Translations under genes and position numbers: made by a program
Source: a virus
Length of the DNA: 50,492 nt
Reading direction: 5' to 3' (one strand)
Virus record (IMG/VR): IMGVR_UViG_3300032288_002345
Coordinates: 1 to 50,492 of that record
The notes under the pieces: model-generated
Told to the model about the DNA's origin: nothing
Seen by the model: the letters and a program-made list of their open reading frames with translations, nothing else
Databases searched by the model: none
In this document: positions 6,663 to 48,107 of the stretch, piece by piece
Position numbering within the stretch: the stretch's first letter is position 1
How the letters are laid out: each line of letters opens with the position of its first letter

Positions 6663-7247
6663 ATGAAGAAACTTATTATAGCATTGTTTGCCCTAGTGGC
6701 AGGCCTATCAGTCGCTACCGCTGCTGATTTACCTTCCAAGAAGGCAGCATCTGCTCCAGCAGTTTCAACAAGTGTGTTTGGATTGAATGGTGTTTATGTA
6801 GGCGGATATGTTGGTCAGAATTTCGGCCAAGTAGCTGATTACACTTGGAGCACAAGCCCATTCACTTTTGGTGGTGTGGCAGGTTACGAGTGGAATCGTT
6901 ATGTACGTACAGAAGCCACTTTTGATTACACAACAAAGCAAACACCAACAACTACTCAAACAGGCCAAACAGCATTTGCTAATGCAATTCTACAGTTTGG
7001 TATTCCAGGTACATCATTCACTCCATATGCACTAGCAGGTGTTGGTGCTGGATTCAATGCTTGGGGTAAAGGCGCATCATCATGGACTGACGATGCAAAA
7101 GCTCTTTACAACGTTGGCGCAGGTGTACGTTACAACATCACAAACAGTGTAGAGCTTGATGCTCGTTATCGCTGGATTGATGCTGTTAGTGGTACAAAGT
7201 TTAGCAACAACAACGTTGCAACATTTGGTGCTAACTACAAGTTCTAA
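6663..7247 (+). CDS. Outer membrane beta-barrel protein (Omp25/Omp31-like)
   Basis: The 194-residue precursor begins with a clear Sec signal peptide, MKKLIIALFALVAGLSVATA, cut before ADLPSK. The mature part has alternating strands (NGVYVGGYVGQNFGQ, FTFGGVAGYEWNRYVRTEATFDY, ELDARYRWIDA) and ends in GANYKF with the C-terminal Phe recognised by the BAM complex. This is the layout of small alphaproteobacterial porins. Such a gene is foreign to T4-like core modules and probably came from a host. A role in altering the infected cell surface, for example masking a receptor, is inference. Its own promoter and terminator make it a separate transcription unit. Confidence 0.82.
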   Translation: MKKLIIALFALVAGLSVATAADLPSKKAASAPAVSTSVFGLNGVYVGGYVGQNFGQVADYTWSTSPFTFGGVAGYEWNRYVRTEATFDYTTKQTPTTTQTGQTAFANAILQFGIPGTSFTPYALAGVGAGFNAWGKGASSWTDDAKALYNVGAGVRYNITNSVELDARYRWIDAVSGTKFSNNNVATFGANYKF

Positions 7248-7876: not shown

Positions 7877-7950
7877 GGGGAATTAGTTAAACGGGATAAC
7901 GGTAGCTTTGCAAGCTTCAGTCAAGAGTTCGACTCTCTTATTCTCCACCA
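7877..7950 (+). tRNA. tRNA-Ala (anticodon UGC)
   Basis: All arms can be drawn. The acceptor GGGGAAT pairs with ATTCTCC, including a G3-U70 wobble, the identity element for alanyl-tRNA synthetase. The D arm is GTTA/TAAC. The anticodon arm GTAGC-TTTGCAA-GCTTC has one T-T mismatch at 28-42 and carries TGC. The T arm is AAGAG-TTCGACT-CTCTT. The discriminator A and the CCA end are encoded. It reads GCA and probably other GCN codons. Encoded CCA and the G3-U70 pair suggest a functional tRNA. Confidence 0.9.
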
Positions 7951-40914: not shown

Positions 40915-42762
40915 ATGGCATATGGTGTAGTAAATGTTTATGTTCCTGAAACTGATACTTTAATTGCTCAAGCAGTTGAATGTACTTTTGGTGAGCCAGA
41001 TGAAGGCACAGGAAATATTAGTGTTACTGCTGGTTCTAAAATTCTATCAGGAACGGGCACTAATTTTACATCTTTAGGCAATCTTTATGTAATTTGGAAA
41101 TGGCCTCACTCTGTATATGGTCCTCAGGAAATATATATAGGAAAAATAAAAGAAGTTATAAGCGACACTTCTGCTATATTGGTAGCTAATTCTGCTATTA
41201 CATGGTCAACTGGAAAAGATCCTAGCAACTGGAAATATTCAACTTATACACAAGCTGTAATTGACTTTGATGAAAATACTTGGCGTTTTACAGATGATAT
41301 ACATAGGGGAAATGGAACTATTACAGTTTCTAATACTACAAATATTATTAACGGTGTAGGTACAGCATTTGCAAAACAATTTGAAATTGGAACACAAGTA
41401 TTTGCAACTTTTGCAAACGCTGGGCCTATTCTAAGCGGAGCAGGAAATATAACTTCAAATGTATCCAGTACAACTATCACAGGTGTTAATACAAATTTTG
41501 AAATTGAATTAGCTAATAATTTTGTAATACTTTCTAATACAGGAAGTTATATAGGTACAGTTTCTAATGTAGTAAGTAATACAAATATAACACTGACTGC
41601 TAATGCTTTATCAACAGTTACAAATAAAGAATTTAAATTTAAACCTTTAACAGAAATGTTACTTGGTGTAATAAAAAATACTTTTTCAAACACACAAGCT
41701 GAATTTACATCTATTTGCAAATATACCGAAAATAATTTAAATTATAGATTTTTTGACGCAATTACACAAAATCAACCGAATGTTATGGTCAAGGGTCAAA
41801 ACGTTATTTCAAAAAGTTTAATTAATTGGTCTAGAAGTGGATTAATACCTAATATAGAACAAATTAAGAGTTATCATCCGCCTGTACCAGATCCGGTAAC
41901 TGGTATTTTGGTTAATTTTCCAGCCACAGTACATAAGTCTAGATCTTCAGGTAAACGATTACACGCTGCTAAATTAAATCCAATTGATGATACAGATAGT
42001 TCTCCTGGTAATTCTAATCATTATGGAGTAACAAAGGATTTTGATTTTGAAAATGGAATAATTGGTAGTAGTACACACAAAGCTATAGAATCGATTCCAC
42101 TAAACAAATATATTAAAAAATTAACACAGTCAAACGCATTTACAGACAATACATATGTTACTACATTGACTAATAGTATAACAGCAATATATGGAAACGC
42201 TGTTGTAACTAATCCTGGAATAGTATTAGAAAATATACCTGAAGATTTTGTATATTCTACTACATTAAATTCTAATAGCAGTCCTTTTATTGCATATGAA
42301 GGACCGGGAGCAAATGTAGTTTATATAGAAAATAAAACTGTTACATCTAATTTATATCCAACTACTGCTGACACATTAGCTGTCTTGTGTGGATTACCTG
42401 CTCCCAAGAGAATAACTGATGAAAGAAGTTCTGCAAATGTGTATTTTAGTACACCTAATCCAATTGGTGCATTAACAGAATCTCAAAAATTTGATTTAGC
42501 AGCTAGAGCTAATAATCAATTTAGTTTAAGCACTAATAAAAGAGTTAAGACAACAAGAGTACCTGCTGCAATACCAGGGCTATTAAATGTTGTATTAGCA
42601 GACGAAAATCCAACTAATCGGCAATTTGCTAATGTTCAATACGAAGGAACAGCGTATGTTCCTATTAGCACAACGTTTAACAGAGATTATCCTGTTTCTA
42701 CAGTTAACACTGCTCCAAAACAAAAAGTTTATAATGTACCATCCAAAGGAACAAACAACTAA
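40915..42762 (+). CDS. Putative baseplate/spike protein with repeats, 615 aa
   Basis: The 615-residue product starts two bases after the PAAR stop. Residues 30-240 contain three related units of about 65-80 residues (GNISVTAGSKILSGTGTNF, GTITVSNTTNIINGVGTAF, GNITSNVSSTTITGVNTNF). They are probably beta domains of a fibre or spike. The C-terminal half has no recognised domain. Its place between the PAAR tip and the lysozyme-headed hub suggests a baseplate part. It overlaps the next start by one base. Confidence 0.65.
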   Translation: MAYGVVNVYVPETDTLIAQAVECTFGEPDEGTGNISVTAGSKILSGTGTNFTSLGNLYVIWKWPHSVYGPQEIYIGKIKEVISDTSAILVANSAITWSTGKDPSNWKYSTYTQAVIDFDENTWRFTDDIHRGNGTITVSNTTNIINGVGTAFAKQFEIGTQVFATFANAGPILSGAGNITSNVSSTTITGVNTNFEIELANNFVILSNTGSYIGTVSNVVSNTNITLTANALSTVTNKEFKFKPLTEMLLGVIKNTFSNTQAEFTSICKYTENNLNYRFFDAITQNQPNVMVKGQNVISKSLINWSRSGLIPNIEQIKSYHPPVPDPVTGILVNFPATVHKSRSSGKRLHAAKLNPIDDTDSSPGNSNHYGVTKDFDFENGIIGSSTHKAIESIPLNKYIKKLTQSNAFTDNTYVTTLTNSITAIYGNAVVTNPGIVLENIPEDFVYSTTLNSNSSPFIAYEGPGANVVYIENKTVTSNLYPTTADTLAVLCGLPAPKRITDERSSANVYFSTPNPIGALTESQKFDLAARANNQFSLSTNKRVKTTRVPAAIPGLLNVVLADENPTNRQFANVQYEGTAYVPISTTFNRDYPVSTVNTAPKQKVYNVPSKGTNN

Positions 42763-45700
42763 TGGCCACAGTTAAAGATTTCAACGGATTGTTTGGAACT
42801 ATTTCAAAATTTGAAGGCTTCCGAGGAACGCCATATAGAGATCCAGGTAATGGTAATCCATATGGACTTGCTATTGGTTACGGCAACGCTAGAAATCCTG
42901 AAACCGGCGATTGGGTAAAGCCTGGCGATACAATTAGCAGAGATTCTGCTAATTCTTTGTTTGGCTCTGCTGTACAGCCTTACATTGATAGAGCTGCGGG
43001 GCAAGTTGGTATAGATACTTGGAATAATCTTTCGCCTGCTGAGCAAAATGCATTAACATCTGTAGCATACAATTACGGTAGTCTTCCCAGCAACGTAGTT
43101 ACGGCGGTTCGTAGCGGAGATTCTAATGCTATTGCAGATGCTATTGCATCTAGATCTGGAGATAACAGTGGCGTTAATGCAGGAAGACGCTCACAAGAAG
43201 CTGATATGATTAGAAACCAGCAATCAATGCCTGCTGGTGCAACAGCAGGAAATGTTGTTCCGCCAGAACTTAAAGCGGATGGGTGGTCATATGGTGATAG
43301 AGATGAAGGCGGAGCGTTTTATACTAAAACAGAAAATGGCAGAGAAGTTAGCATTCAGTATGATGCAGAATCTAAGACATGGTACAAATATGATACTGCT
43401 ACCGGTAATCCTATAGATAAAAACGGCAATGTAGTTGATCAAAATACTCCCGAAGGTCAAAAAATGATGGAAACGGGAGAAGGACAGGCTACTTCAGAGT
43501 ACGGTGCTCCTCCCGCAGGTGGCGCAGGTGGTGCTCCTGGCGGGGCACCCGGTGGTGCTCCTGGCGGTGCAGGTGGAATGGAAATTGGCGGCGCTGGGTG
43601 TAAAGGCGGCGGCACAAGTCCTGCAGGACTATTAGCCAAAGGCGGTTTGTTAGGTAATTTAGGAGGAGTAGCACAAGCTGCTGTAATGGGAGCAGCAACA
43701 GCGGCACTTAGTGGAGCAGGGATTCAAGGCATTATGGGCGGCGCTTTAGGTGCAGCTGGCGGCGCATTGGGTAATGCATTAGGAGCAGCGGCTGGCGGCG
43801 CGGGCGGCGCCTTCTTAGGACAAACATTAGGCGGCGCACTAGGCGGCATTGTAGCAGGTGCTAATCCTTTGCAAGCACTGAGCGGCAGTGCGTTTGGAGC
43901 ATTAAGCCAAATGGGAGGTGCATTAATTCCGGGTCTAAGTAATGTTATGCCTCCAGCATTAGCAGGTGCCGCTATAAATGGATTACAAGGCGTATTAGGC
44001 GGAATAGCAAGAGGTGCTAGTCCCAGTGCTGCGTTTCAGATGGGTATGGCTGGCGGTTTATCTGGATTAATAGCTAACGTATCAAACAATATGACTGGTA
44101 ACTATGCTCTTGGTGCTCAACTAGGTGCTGTAGCATCTGGCGTTTTAAACGGCACAGTAAGTCTTAATGGAGCAGCGTCTGGCAGAGTCGATCTTTCACG
44201 TTATACTAGTTTGATACAAACAGCAGCCGCAGTAAGTGGTGGTAATAGAGTTATGGTAGGTGCAATTACTGAAGCTATGTCAAACAAATTTGGCAACGGA
44301 CCAGGCGGATATGGTGCAGCAGTAAGAAATATGCAAGATGCCATGACCTTTAGTGTGTCAACTCTAGGTCAAGACATTAATGCTGTATCTGCTGACTTAA
44401 TCGCGTTAGGCGATTGGGACGCTAGTAATTTAATGAGACTTATGCAACCAGGTAACATTATATATCAACTGTTACAAGCAGGGTTAGGAGATATTACAAC
44501 TATTACTGATTTTGCTGTTGCAACAGGATTACCGTTAGCAGGAGTTGACAATCCTATATTTGATAGAGTTTCATTAGCTATTCTAAGACAAATTTCTGAT
44601 GTAGAAGTTATTAATACTGTTAAAACAGCATTTAAAATGAACCAAACTGTTTCTATTACTAACTTAGGAGATCTTTGCGATATAACAAAAATGATGCCAA
44701 ATAGTTATAGAAACATGCCTGTTTCAAATTTTAGAGAATTAGGTGTACAGTTTGCTATTATTGGAATTCGTAACGAAGTTTCATTAAGACAAATTGGAGA
44801 AGCATTTAGTAATATCGAAACTTCAACTGACTTAAATCACATGAGTCAATTAGCTCAACCGTTGCCGGTAGAAGTCGCCCAGCCATTATTAGAAGTTTAT
44901 GGTTATGGCGGCGGCAGTCTTGGCGAACAAACAATGGCCGACATTATTGGCACACCAGCAGGTTATGTTCATACTGATACTATTCCAGTAATTACTAAAG
45001 CTAACGAATTCATAATGAATCACACTGAAGCTACTAGATTAGTCGAGCTCACTAACTTATTATCAGACACATTAAAAGGTGTATATACTGATTTAGGTAG
45101 CCCAGGTGACGAAACCAACGGCATACCTGCTGATTCAGGAGCAATTGATGTACCAACTGTTGGTACGTTCGGCACATTGGACGAAGCAATACTAGCTTTC
45201 ATACCATTGATTGAAGCTGAACATCAAAACTTGTTAGATACTAACGATCCTTTACTAGTAGATCAAATTGATAAACTTAATGTAGCTTGGAATGCAAGTT
45301 GTGCTCAAATCGTTAGAGAAAATAACAATCTACAAATACATGACATTGATATATTCAACCCGTTGCCTGCAACACCAGGAAGTGTAATGGGTTTCGTAGA
45401 TAGTTTAGATTCCTATGCTATGGAAACTGGCTATGGGCAAGCTGGTGAATATATTGAACGCATTGCAAGTAAAGATGTTTATGGTGATGCAATAAAATAT
45501 GTCATGCGTCAAGCTAGAAATGGTGCTGCATTAGAAGGTTTAGGTATAGATATCGAACGCTATAAACTACCACAAAGTGAATACTTTAGAAATCCTGAAG
45601 GATTTTATGAAAAGTTATATACTGGCAATATGCCTTCGCGTCCAGAAAATCAAATGGCTACTATGTACCCTCGTACTCCAACAGATGTTTATGTATCAGA

Positions 45701-46334
45701 AAGAGAAAAGAAGCTACAGCAATTGGGTATGAGTGATGTACCTTTACTGAATAACCAAAAAGATGAACTATATTATGATGCATTATGGATGGATACTCCT
45801 GAAAATGTATTAGAAGCAATGGGTCAATCAGTAGTTAAAAATGTTGTTACAAACAATCTATCAGTGAGATTTCCCGATTTGTTAATAAAAAATCTAGATG
45901 GGTCATTCTTAAAATTTGGTGAAATTAAAAGCGAAGGATTGCTGTTAACTAATAACGATGATTTTATTGCAATAATGTTGCAATTAGTGAATAGAGCATT
46001 ATATGGAGATCTGATTACTACTAAATTTGATAATCCATTTAAAACAGATCAAATGGTATTTGGATTATTAGAGCTATTAACTCAAGTAAATTATCAAAAT
46101 ATTGCTGCTTTATTGCAAACAATAACCGGCGGCGTATTAGCATCTAGCTTCTTGACCATAATTGAACGAATCTATTCACAAGGTGCAGCAGGTGGTATAC
46201 CAGGATTGGATGCAGGGTTATTAGCACAGGTTAGAAACGGCCGAAGCTTGTTTGAAACTGATCTAAATCGTAACGATCCCAAAGCATGGGGTGCTGCTGG
46301 TCCTGATTCAGTACCGAAGAAATTTGACAACTAA
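42762..46334 (+). CDS. Baseplate hub protein with N-terminal lysozyme-like domain
   Basis: The 1190-residue protein starts with a GH24-like domain (KFEGFRGTPYRDPGNGNPYG, then LAIGYGNARN) to about residue 130. Glu18 and Asp27 align with the T4 lysozyme catalytic Glu11 and Asp20. The Thr26 position appears as Ala37 (LAIGYG). Residues 230-270 are tandem Gly-Ala-Pro repeats. Residues 270-500 are Gly/Ala-rich with Gly-zipper patterns (LGAAGGALGNALGAAAGGAG). The C-terminal 650 residues are helical and unassigned. It would be the gp5-like puncturing component, greatly extended. The GC-rich repeat DNA at about 43500-43900 stands out. Confidence 0.72.
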   Translation: MATVKDFNGLFGTISKFEGFRGTPYRDPGNGNPYGLAIGYGNARNPETGDWVKPGDTISRDSANSLFGSAVQPYIDRAAGQVGIDTWNNLSPAEQNALTSVAYNYGSLPSNVVTAVRSGDSNAIADAIASRSGDNSGVNAGRRSQEADMIRNQQSMPAGATAGNVVPPELKADGWSYGDRDEGGAFYTKTENGREVSIQYDAESKTWYKYDTATGNPIDKNGNVVDQNTPEGQKMMETGEGQATSEYGAPPAGGAGGAPGGAPGGAPGGAGGMEIGGAGCKGGGTSPAGLLAKGGLLGNLGGVAQAAVMGAATAALSGAGIQGIMGGALGAAGGALGNALGAAAGGAGGAFLGQTLGGALGGIVAGANPLQALSGSAFGALSQMGGALIPGLSNVMPPALAGAAINGLQGVLGGIARGASPSAAFQMGMAGGLSGLIANVSNNMTGNYALGAQLGAVASGVLNGTVSLNGAASGRVDLSRYTSLIQTAAAVSGGNRVMVGAITEAMSNKFGNGPGGYGAAVRNMQDAMTFSVSTLGQDINAVSADLIALGDWDASNLMRLMQPGNIIYQLLQAGLGDITTITDFAVATGLPLAGVDNPIFDRVSLAILRQISDVEVINTVKTAFKMNQTVSITNLGDLCDITKMMPNSYRNMPVSNFRELGVQFAIIGIRNEVSLRQIGEAFSNIETSTDLNHMSQLAQPLPVEVAQPLLEVYGYGGGSLGEQTMADIIGTPAGYVHTDTIPVITKANEFIMNHTEATRLVELTNLLSDTLKGVYTDLGSPGDETNGIPADSGAIDVPTVGTFGTLDEAILAFIPLIEAEHQNLLDTNDPLLVDQIDKLNVAWNASCAQIVRENNNLQIHDIDIFNPLPATPGSVMGFVDSLDSYAMETGYGQAGEYIERIASKDVYGDAIKYVMRQARNGAALEGLGIDIERYKLPQSEYFRNPEGFYEKLYTGNMPSRPENQMATMYPRTPTDVYVSEREKKLQQLGMSDVPLLNNQKDELYYDALWMDTPENVLEAMGQSVVKNVVTNNLSVRFPDLLIKNLDGSFLKFGEIKSEGLLLTNNDDFIAIMLQLVNRALYGDLITTKFDNPFKTDQMVFGLLELLTQVNYQNIAALLQTITGGVLASSFLTIIERIYSQGAAGGIPGLDAGLLAQVRNGRSLFETDLNRNDPKAWGAAGPDSVPKKFDN

Positions 46335-46346
46335 GCAATAATTTGT

Positions 46347-46354
46347 TATAAATA
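46347..46354 (+). promoter_or_regulatory. T4-type late promoter octamer upstream of tmRNA
   Basis: TATAAATA, a perfect match to the late consensus, lies 13 bases after the hub stop and directly before the first tmRNA hairpin (46361-46377). It is well placed to start tmRNA synthesis late in infection. Confidence 0.65.
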
Positions 46355-46360
46355 TATTAC

Positions 46361-46726
46361 TGTTGTTGATAGCAACATAATAAAGCGGTCTGGACCTGGG
46401 GGCGGTACCCAGCGACTCCACCATAAACACATTGGAATAAGAATGATTTGGTTAGTTTGGGATTGGTTTGCAAATAGAAATTATTATGGTGATCTAAGTC
46501 AACACCGTAAGTATCATTCATTGTATGAAGATCTGTGTATGTAATGTGTTTATGATGGGGTCGAAATAGGATCGACAGGCGTATAAAGGTTGAAGTAGAC
46601 AGTCCGGCGAAAGCTCGGTTAACGCAATAAAAACTATAAGTGCTAACGACAACGTTGCACCTTCTTACGCACTAGCTGCGTAAATGAGCCCGGGGAGGGC
46701 TTGGAAACAGAACCTCCCCACTTTTT
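46361..46726 (+). ncRNA. ssrA: Circularly permuted two-piece tmRNA
   Basis: Two tRNA-like halves occur in reversed order. The acceptor half ends with T stem CTGGG/CCCAG (46396-46412), then CGACTCC, A and an encoded CCA (46413-46423). The coding half starts GGGGTCG (46557-46563) and pairs with CGACTCC in seven pairs, including G3-U70, the alanine signal. AGGATCGAC follows as in known tmRNAs. The tag frame GCT...TAA (46642-46683) encodes ANDNVAPSYALAA, with the LAA end that ClpXP recognises. A pseudoknot follows (AGCCC/GGGCT with GGGGA/TCCCC, 46686-46719), then T5. A 133-base intervening segment closes the helix. The RNA would free stalled ribosomes and tag proteins. The exact mature 5' end of the acceptor piece is estimated. 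Confidence 0.9.
46443..46544 (+). CDS. 33-codon ORF inside the tmRNA intervening segment
   Basis: An ATG at 46443, six bases after GGA, opens a 33-codon frame that ends with TAA at 46542-46544. The peptide starts MIWLVWDWFANRNYYG and is rich in Trp, Tyr and His, with a basic middle and acidic end. It lies wholly between the acceptor and coding halves. No similar peptide is known to me. Its stop codon overlaps the 3' arm of the closing stem. It may be a real small protein, a chance frame, or a sequence kept for RNA structure. Confidence 0.35.
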   Translation: MIWLVWDWFANRNYYGDLSQHRKYHSLYEDLCM

Positions 46727-46779
46727 ATAAGGAGAAAGTCTAGGGCTTGGCAACCCTATTCTAAAAAACGGAGAAAGTA

Positions 46780-47298
46780 TTGAATATTATAAAAACAACG
46801 GCAGTGGCTATGACTCTTGCATTTGTAGGATGTGGTACTGCACAAAGTAAAATAGTAGAAAATGCAAGTACTCAAGATCATAAATGTTTAGCACAAGCTA
46901 TCTATTATGAATCCGGTTCAGAACCACTAGCCGGCCGACATGCTGTTGCTCATGTTGTATTGAATAGAGTTAAAAGTGGTTTGTATCCAACATCGATATG
47001 TGAAGTAGTTTATCAACGCAATTATCTTGCAAGAGGTTGTCAATTTTCTTGGAGCTGTCGACGTCATGCAACACCTTCAGGTGTTCGCTGGCAGCAAGCT
47101 CAAGAAGTTGCAACGTTAGTTCTTGCAGGCAAAAGTGAGGATACTAGTCGTGGTGCTACAATTTTTCATGGGCGTAACGATCGTGTAAATTATAGCTCTA
47201 AACACTATCAAAAAACTGCGGTTATTGGCGGTCATACTTTTTATCGTCAAAAGAAACTACAGTTATTGGCGGATAATCGCTTGGGAGATAAAAAATGA
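46780..47298 (+). CDS. SleB/CwlJ-like cell wall hydrolase lipoprotein
   Basis: The frame starts with TTG at 46780, after CGGAGAAAG. MNIIKTTAVAMTLAFVGCGT ends in a lipobox (FVGC), so Cys18 could be lipidated. The domain starts CLAQAIYYESGSEP with the catalytic Glu44 and continues with AVAHVVLNRVKSGLYPTSIC, CQFSWSC and GATIFHGR, the Hydrolase_2 (SleB) pattern. It would cleave peptidoglycan. A hairpin TAGGG/CCCTA lies in the 50-base leader between two GGAGAAAG copies (46731 and 46771). Its stop overlaps the next gene by four bases. Together they look like a lysis pair. Confidence 0.82.
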   Translation: MNIIKTTAVAMTLAFVGCGTAQSKIVENASTQDHKCLAQAIYYESGSEPLAGRHAVAHVVLNRVKSGLYPTSICEVVYQRNYLARGCQFSWSCRRHATPSGVRWQQAQEVATLVLAGKSEDTSRGATIFHGRNDRVNYSSKHYQKTAVIGGHTFYRQKKLQLLADNRLGDKK

Positions 47299-48107
47299 AG
47301 AAAACACTTATTGCATTATTTGCAGCACTAACAGGTATTACTGTTTTGTCTGCACCTGTTGAAGCTAGTCCTTCAAATGCAGGTAAGGTTCAAAAAACAA
47401 AAGAAATGATTACTATTTCAAAGTTTGGTCAAACTTGGAAAGTAACCAAAGCTACAGCAATAGATCGTTGTGAAAAGAGTAAAACAGATCCTAATCGTAA
47501 AAATTGGAAATTGTATTGTGAGTACGTACAGCCGGTCGCTGTTGCTAATAATGAAAATCAATGTAGGTTTTTATTCTGGACTACTAACTGCGTAATTCAA
47601 AATGAAGATGTAGTTAAGCCTGCAGAACCTACTAGGCAAATTTCAGAAGCATCTAATCAAACAAAGAAAGCATTTGTTCCTGAAAAAAGTCAAATATTGG
47701 CTAAAGCAGAAAGCACCATTGGATTAAATGCTCGTCGTGATAGGCAGACATTAAGTAAAAAACTTAGTAACGCAAACGGAATGAATATTGATCCAGTGCG
47801 TATTCCATGGTGTGCTGCTTGGATGAATATGGTATTACACGATGTTGGGTTAGAAACTACAGGCAGTCTAATGGCTCGCAGTTTCTTAGCATGGGGTAAA
47901 CCTGTTGCAGGCGAACCTAAAGTAGGAGATGTTGTAGTAATGCGTCGTGGACGCAATAGAAATAACGGTCACGTTGGATTCTTTTATGCATTCGTGGAAC
48001 ATAACGGGGTGCAGAAAATTGCAGTATTAGGCGGCAACCAGGGTAAGGAAGTTCGTATTAGCTATTACCCAATTACTAAGGTAATTGCTTACAGAACAGC
48101 AGCTTAA
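47295..48107 (+). CDS. Secreted CHAP/NlpC-like peptidase
   Basis: The 270-residue protein begins with a Sec signal peptide (MKKTLIALFAALTGITVLSA), similar to that of the OMP. About residues 35-105 are a Cys-containing segment of unknown fold. The catalytic part begins near residue 135. PWCAAWMNMVL has the nucleophile Cys173 and NNGHVGFFYA has His226, with GDVVVMRRG and VLGGNQG as flanking motifs. This fits the TIGR02594/CHAP-type amidase group, which cuts the peptide part of peptidoglycan. Export by Sec suggests endolysin action from the periplasm. Confidence 0.75.
   Translation: MKKTLIALFAALTGITVLSAPVEASPSNAGKVQKTKEMITISKFGQTWKVTKATAIDRCEKSKTDPNRKNWKLYCEYVQPVAVANNENQCRFLFWTTNCVIQNEDVVKPAEPTRQISEASNQTKKAFVPEKSQILAKAESTIGLNARRDRQTLSKKLSNANGMNIDPVRIPWCAAWMNMVLHDVGLETTGSLMARSFLAWGKPVAGEPKVGDVVVMRRGRNRNNGHVGFFYAFVEHNGVQKIAVLGGNQGKEVRISYYPITKVIAYRTAA

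Follow-up and report, generated by a model that had tools for sequence, protein, structure and literature searches.

Among the described tmRNA systems closest to the locus reported here are two permuted ones. The ssrA gene of alphaproteobacteria (Rfam RF01849, Caulobacter type) shares with it the order of the pieces, the acceptor, the G3-U70 pair, the pseudoknots and the two-piece layout, but its spacers, as far as sampled, are mostly 10-60 nt long, and the few long ones are devoid of ORFs. The other system is that of phage Melnitz, a Methylophilales phage of the Kyanoviridae, which has a permuted tmRNA that its authors put behind an early promoter; the same authors counted 53 two-piece tmRNAs in phage genomes (PMC9004378). 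Melnitz resembles the virus sequence analyzed here (a stretch of 50,492 nt classed as a linear fragment, hereafter the window) in having an alpha-type permuted tmRNA, T4-like genes, the upstream sequence TTGACA-N17-TATAAATA, a spacer helix and a tag ending in ALAA, and differs from it in that the Melnitz tmRNA precedes a late-transcription coactivator gene and has a glutamine riboswitch on its 3′ side (PMC9004378). No Rfam match to such a riboswitch was obtained for the window tmRNA. The first-pass annotation of the window had considered a permuted tmRNA in a T4-like phage to be rare or unreported, a view that fails, since Melnitz was published in 2022 and both Gp23-positive contigs and roseophages also carry one. 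At least 120 permuted tmRNA candidates were obtained in each of two viral-contig scans, and 44 of 50 tested viral records passed the covariance-model cut-off. Among the sampled records, six Gp23-positive viral contigs in addition to Melnitz carry a permuted tmRNA (phage Cr30, which also has Gp23, lacks one), and further copies occur in roseophages, a Rhodobacter phage and a Mesorhizobium phage. That is, the two-piece phage tmRNA itself is already known and is common in viral contigs.

In the window, the region 46320-46722 gave a full-length cmscan match to Rfam alpha_tmRNA (RF01849; 136.4 bits, gathering threshold 50, E 3.4e-37), and 46362-46683 matched tmRNA_permuted (RF04321; 124.5 bits, gathering 47). 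At the level of sequence, this confirms 46320-46722 as an alpha-type circularly permuted two-piece tmRNA, as the first-pass annotation had claimed when it named the alpha_tmRNA model as a check. The locus and its neighbours are laid out as follows:

42762-46334, + strand: upstream neighbour, a protein of 1190 aa with an N-terminal phage lysozyme domain
46324-46354, + strand: candidate composite promoter from a pattern search, with TTGACA (46324-46329), 17 nt and TATAAATA (46347-46354)
46361-46423, + strand: acceptor piece of the tmRNA, with 5′ flank, T arm, acceptor 3′ strand and CCA (cmscan alignment and sequence)
46396-46412, + strand: T arm, stem 46396-46400/46408-46412 (read from the sequence)
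46413-46419, + strand: acceptor 3′ strand, followed by A46420 and the encoded CCA at 46421-46423 (read from the sequence)
46424-46556, + strand: intervening segment of 133 nt, predicted to be removed on maturation (sequence, folding and arm pairing)
46443-46544, + strand: putative nested small gene of 33 codons plus TAA, MIWLVWDWFANRNYYGDLSQHRKYHSLYEDLCM, family F1 (homologues, dN/dS)
46557-46722, + strand: coding piece, with the GGGGUCG 5′ end (G3 = 46559), upstream pseudoknot region, tag frame and 3′ pseudoknot (cmscan)
46642-46683, + strand: tag reading frame ANDNVAPSYALAA, GCU46642 to GCG46680, stop UAA 46681-46683 (sequence)
46780-47298, + strand: downstream cell wall hydrolase (Hydrolase_2)
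47295-48107, + strand: downstream CHAP-domain protein

The acceptor strand 46413-46419 pairs at all seven positions with 46557-46563, and G46559-U46417 forms the G3-U70 pair, so that the 7-bp acceptor, G3-U70 and encoded CCA of alanine identity are all present. The tag ANDNVAPSYALAA has the expected GCN resume codon, ANDN.. start and -AA end, and terminates in ALAA. The spacer arms 46424-46433 and 46543-46552 form 10 perfect pairs, which continue the acceptor helix via ACCA/UGAU with one C-A mismatch, and folding of the precursor strand recovered the T arm, the acceptor and the spacer helix. All these elements, from the acceptor, G3-U70 and the tag to the ten-pair stem and its mismatched extension, are as first described. 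Importantly, over 77 non-redundant viral spacers the pairing of the arms with their own partners amounted to 9.16 of 10 positions, against 6.72 for swapped arms (7.03 in the best of 300 swaps); the spacer helix is above chance and the arms covary across viral spacers. ARAGORN missed the permuted tmRNA, its sole hit in the window being a tRNA-Ala at another site, which means that ordinary annotation would miss this tmRNA; the tRNA-Ala(UGC) gene lies at 7877-7950. A freshwater-2 RNA match at 46665-46744 (21.5 bits, under the gathering threshold of 49.9) was dismissed as chance.

The claim that the tmRNA is phage-borne is backed by the T4-type replication genes in the window, encoding UvsX, gp32-like, gp41-like helicase, UvsW-like helicase and NrdB proteins. 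The label T4-like is borne out on the replication side; on the capsid side, the Gp23 major capsid protein had no match within the 50-kb fragment, and the label therefore rests on the replication genes. Viral contigs L213-L216 encode proteins related to the upstream lysozyme-domain protein (51-62% identity); L213, L214 and L215 have a permuted tmRNA in the corresponding position, and L216 ends before that site. Naming of a host from the T-arm pattern was abandoned, as only Thalassospira and Robiginitomaculum matched, which is too little for a host. The window also encodes an outer-membrane beta-barrel protein with a signal peptide (6663-7247; Pfam OMP_b-brl), and an OMP_b-brl-like gene, with a match below the cut-off, is located ~750 bases past the tmRNA of L285.

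Upstream of the tmRNA, the only perfect TTGACA-N17-TATAAA of the window occupies 46324-46352, and TATAAATA overlaps its -10 box. TATAAATA occurs four times in the window against 8.6 expected, and by itself is therefore no evidence for a late promoter. The same TTGACA-N17-TATAAATA layout is found before many phage permuted tmRNAs, ~42 nt ahead of the T arm: after deduplication, the regions upstream of viral permuted tmRNA candidates numbered 159, of which 90 had a sigma-70 score of at least 10 of 12 positions (against 9 of 159 after shuffling) and 73 contained TATAAATA. The predicted signal is a composite, i.e. a sigma-70 promoter with its -10 box extended into a T4-late-like box, and host sigma-70 RNA polymerase could read it. 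A pure T4 late promoter as the sole reading was rejected in view of the perfect TTGACA 17 nt upstream and the under-representation of TATAAATA, though the box may also serve late in infection. Of the earlier description of the tmRNA as lying behind a late promoter, the late-like box stands; the reading was incomplete in that the box belongs to the TTGACA-N17 composite.

The permuted tmRNAs of the viral set vary in other respects. In L011, L044, L113, L140 (an 82-kb Gp23-positive record), L152, L168, L178, L186, L201 and L212 the tag begins ~47 nt past the 5′ end of the coding piece, and the usual upstream pseudoknot seems to be absent from these ten tmRNAs. The tags of L055 (ANDNVSNVFSFVDFGSLKNYVNEDYALAA) and L198 (ANDNALSNVTFVDFSAPVTAVNEDFALAA) have an apparent length of 29 residues each and are similar to each other, and those of L213/L214 (ANDNTPFEAMKIAA; both close relatives of the window phage), L097 (SNDNTPFEAMKVAA) and L154 (SNDNVPYSAMKIAA) end in MK(I/V)AA instead of the usual ALAA. 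Near-identical spacers are found on tmRNAs that are otherwise different (L213/L214/L230/L237/L238 and L231/L233/L236), as if cassettes had been exchanged. In L301-L304 (Roseobacter, Ruegeria and Phaeobacter phages), GOLLD RNA precedes the permuted tmRNA by no more than ~300 nt, and glutamine riboswitch aptamers lie beside the phage tmRNAs of L194 (1903-1956), L064 (2150-2198) and L227 (3357-3405), as published for Melnitz.

What the first reading of the region overlooked is a protein gene in the spacer. With 33 codons and only a weak ribosome-binding site (TTGGAATAAGAATG), the window ORF would be unconvincing alone, and the case for it rests on its homologues. A motif search found F1 in 16 viral contigs. 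It occupies four other distinct tmRNA spacers (L167, L229, L279 and L285/L286), three of them alpha-type and one beta-type (L285; RF01850, 114 bits); the L167 spacer F1 has identical copies in L274, L281 and L282, and the L167 record (G043) carries Gp23. F1 also occurs as a free gene (L273/L276, L275, L277, L278, L280, L283 and L284), and in L172 it lies directly behind the tmRNA. Aligned with 11 others, the window ORF fits the consensus end GD[LVM]S.HRK[HY]....YEDLCM of these 31-35 aa proteins; twelve residues are invariant over the 12 members, among them G16, D17, H21, R22, K23 and Y28-M33, and S19 is A in L167. Between the window and L167, dN is 0.19 and dS 0.90, F1 estimates that are made over ~33 codons and in which dS is saturated in several pairs.

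F1 had no match of weight in Pfam or PHROG (weak matches to PHROG 33314 and to zinc fingers were rejected), and tblastn gave no convincing homologue in isolate phages. The AlphaFold model has a helix at residues 3-23 with low confidence (pLDDT 63); together with the polar conserved end, this N-terminal helix suggests a small membrane-associated protein, most likely of a lysis or late module. The window tmRNA is itself flanked by the lysozyme-domain protein before it and the two cell wall hydrolases after it. In L277 the free F1 gene is followed by GTA_holin_3TM and GH108 endolysin genes, and L283 has an Amidase_2 gene farther downstream. The putative link between F1 and lysis is a correlation of place, with free F1 inside a lysis module in at least two cases.

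Spacer ORFs are a general pattern in phages. In a set of 40 non-redundant viral spacers of at least 100 nt, fetched by tmRNA patterns or relatives, never by ORF, and leaving out the window, 31 were filled to 70% or more by a sense ATG ORF, against 1 of 40 in antisense (combined p ~5e-26 vs dinucleotide shuffles). The longest ATG ORF took up a mean spacer fraction of 0.73 in sense, 0.21 in antisense and 0.31 in shuffled sequences, and a 4-nt ribosome-binding motif preceded 27 of the 40 ORF starts vs 19 of 221 other ATGs (p 4e-15). The ORFs belong to several unrelated families with dN far under dS (F2, 0.09 vs 1.0; F3, 0.18 vs 1.4; F4, 0.07-0.13 vs 0.7-1.4), most of the sequences compared being metagenomic fragments. 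These comparisons demonstrate coding constraint on the predicted spacer ORFs across phages. Free homologues of many of these ORFs lie close to other phage tmRNAs; e.g. the F3 spacer gene of L137/L174 has its counterpart in an annotated free gene immediately before the Melnitz tmRNA. The 499-nt spacer of L049 (tmRNA on the minus strand) contains two ORFs, one of which, of 120 aa, recurs as a free gene close to the tmRNA at ~20 other loci. In redundant counts, ORFs end inside the spacer in 18 cases (including the window), at a UGA just before the coding piece in 17 (class B) and inside the tmRNA in 25, some of them weak (class C, in which the stop is the UAG of GAAAUAG in the coding piece). Spacer ORFs in the roseophages and the Mesorhizobium phage were considered and rejected, the spacers there being structured and having no convincing ORF. 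On the bacterial side, 42 alphaproteobacterial spacers had a median length of ~34 nt, and the longest (165, 115 and 89 nt, picked for length among the 42) contained no comparable ORF; only two of the bacterial matches listed exceeded 280 nt, both were read, and the long ones had no ORF, although rare bacterial cases may exist outside that list. In the literature searched, with most subscription tmRNA work outside its reach, we found no report of ORFs in tmRNA spacers, and what seems to be new is the nesting of a predicted conserved small protein gene in a tmRNA spacer, an arrangement seen again in dozens of related viruses.

Could the window simply hold an ordinary permuted phage tmRNA, with a meaningless spacer and an ORF arisen by chance? 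The shortness and weak start of the ORF would fit, as would the many phage tmRNAs with structured, ORF-less spacers, including the roseophages and the nearest relatives L213 and L215, whose spacers lack any comparable ORF (the nested gene is thus not needed for the window tmRNA). A chance origin is nevertheless improbable given the F1 homologues in four other distinct spacers and in free genes, the low dN relative to dS, the sense over antisense excess and the enrichment of ribosome-binding sites. Far less probable still is a host origin, with a prophage having acquired a piece of host ssrA or a host contig having been mis-binned: integration at ssrA is common (PMC9004378), but in four contigs the tmRNA has the same position amid phage genes, and the exact upstream-pseudoknot pattern had no hit in 84,980 prokaryote genomes, whereas a pattern of slightly different length is present in ten viral contigs, which points to a phage lineage and not to a fresh host copy.

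The remaining alternatives concern function. Instead of actively rescuing ribosomes, the phage RNA might serve as a decoy or an inhibitor, in the manner of the phage DS6A form that consists of the tRNA-like part only. DS6A-type RNA inhibits tmRNA (PMC11915505, PMC4131195), and no SmpB gene was found in nine phage records, i.e. the window and eight others including the complete Melnitz genome, suggesting that the phage tmRNA would compete for host SmpB. We think this unlikely, since the window RNA retains a full tag frame ending in ALAA, its pseudoknots and G3-U70, and -AA tag ends persist throughout the phage set. Somewhat less doubtful, and offered tentatively, is that nested gene and tmRNA control each other: RNase P maturation would destroy or free the small mRNA, and a class C cut would give a non-stop message tagged by the same tmRNA. 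The three classes of ORF ends would be in keeping with this, and a similar overlap, with an expected non-stop smpB message, has been described for Carsonella (PMC4131195). However, the window ORF ends inside the spacer and its message would keep its stop, and the class B and C stops follow from conserved tmRNA bases and so call for no selection.

We consider it probable, from the sequence comparisons above, that one transcript gives two products, the two-piece tmRNA and the small F1 protein from the spacer. Transcription from the TTGACA/TATAAATA promoter would yield a single precursor (acceptor half, spacer, coding half), in which the paired spacer arms would lengthen the acceptor helix and keep the precursor tRNA-like. 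Based on established tmRNA biology, cleavage by host RNase P would be expected just 5′ of G46557, and trimming at the CCA end would release the acceptor piece; the resulting two-piece tmRNA could be charged with alanine. Using host SmpB, it would rescue stalled ribosomes and add ANDNVAPSYALAA as a degradation tag, and, again by analogy with established tmRNA biology, the proteins bearing it would undergo tag-directed proteolysis. The discarded spacer, whose loop has a start site followed by a frame of 33 codons and a stop, would double as a mini-mRNA from which the F1 protein could be made.

Permuted tmRNA spacers are usually seen as waste, but in dozens of phages they look like selected protein genes. 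If so, a precursor thought to be a rescue RNA only would be a messenger too, phages would gain a reason for keeping the permuted form, hidden small genes would be added to genomes annotated only as "tmRNA", and processing by RNase P would be tied, in a testable way, to ribosome rescue and phage lysis. More speculatively, in many phages the spacer might be a standing site for exchangeable small genes, and tmRNA processing might determine whether the nested message is released, is cut at its stop or becomes a non-stop message handled by the same tmRNA, thereby coupling ribosome rescue to the expression of small lysis-associated or late proteins.

Melnitz, a cultured isolate, has a spacer ORF of its own and makes a direct test possible. 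That ORF (..KIPKYLSG..) differs from F1 and is without annotation in the record, and the F3 homologue of Melnitz is a free gene. A protein gene within a tmRNA gene is likewise found where a tmRNA carries a group I intron with a homing endonuclease gene (PMC11915505), but there the host element is a self-splicing intron and the product a LAGLIDADG nuclease, whereas the putative window gene lies in the spacer between permuted tmRNA halves and would encode a small unrelated protein. The smpB/ssrA overlap of Carsonella (PMC4131195) differs in that the tmRNA is one-piece and bacterial and the gene flanks it instead of being nested; still, the frame overlaps the end of the tmRNA and maturation should cut the message, as in class C spacer ORFs.
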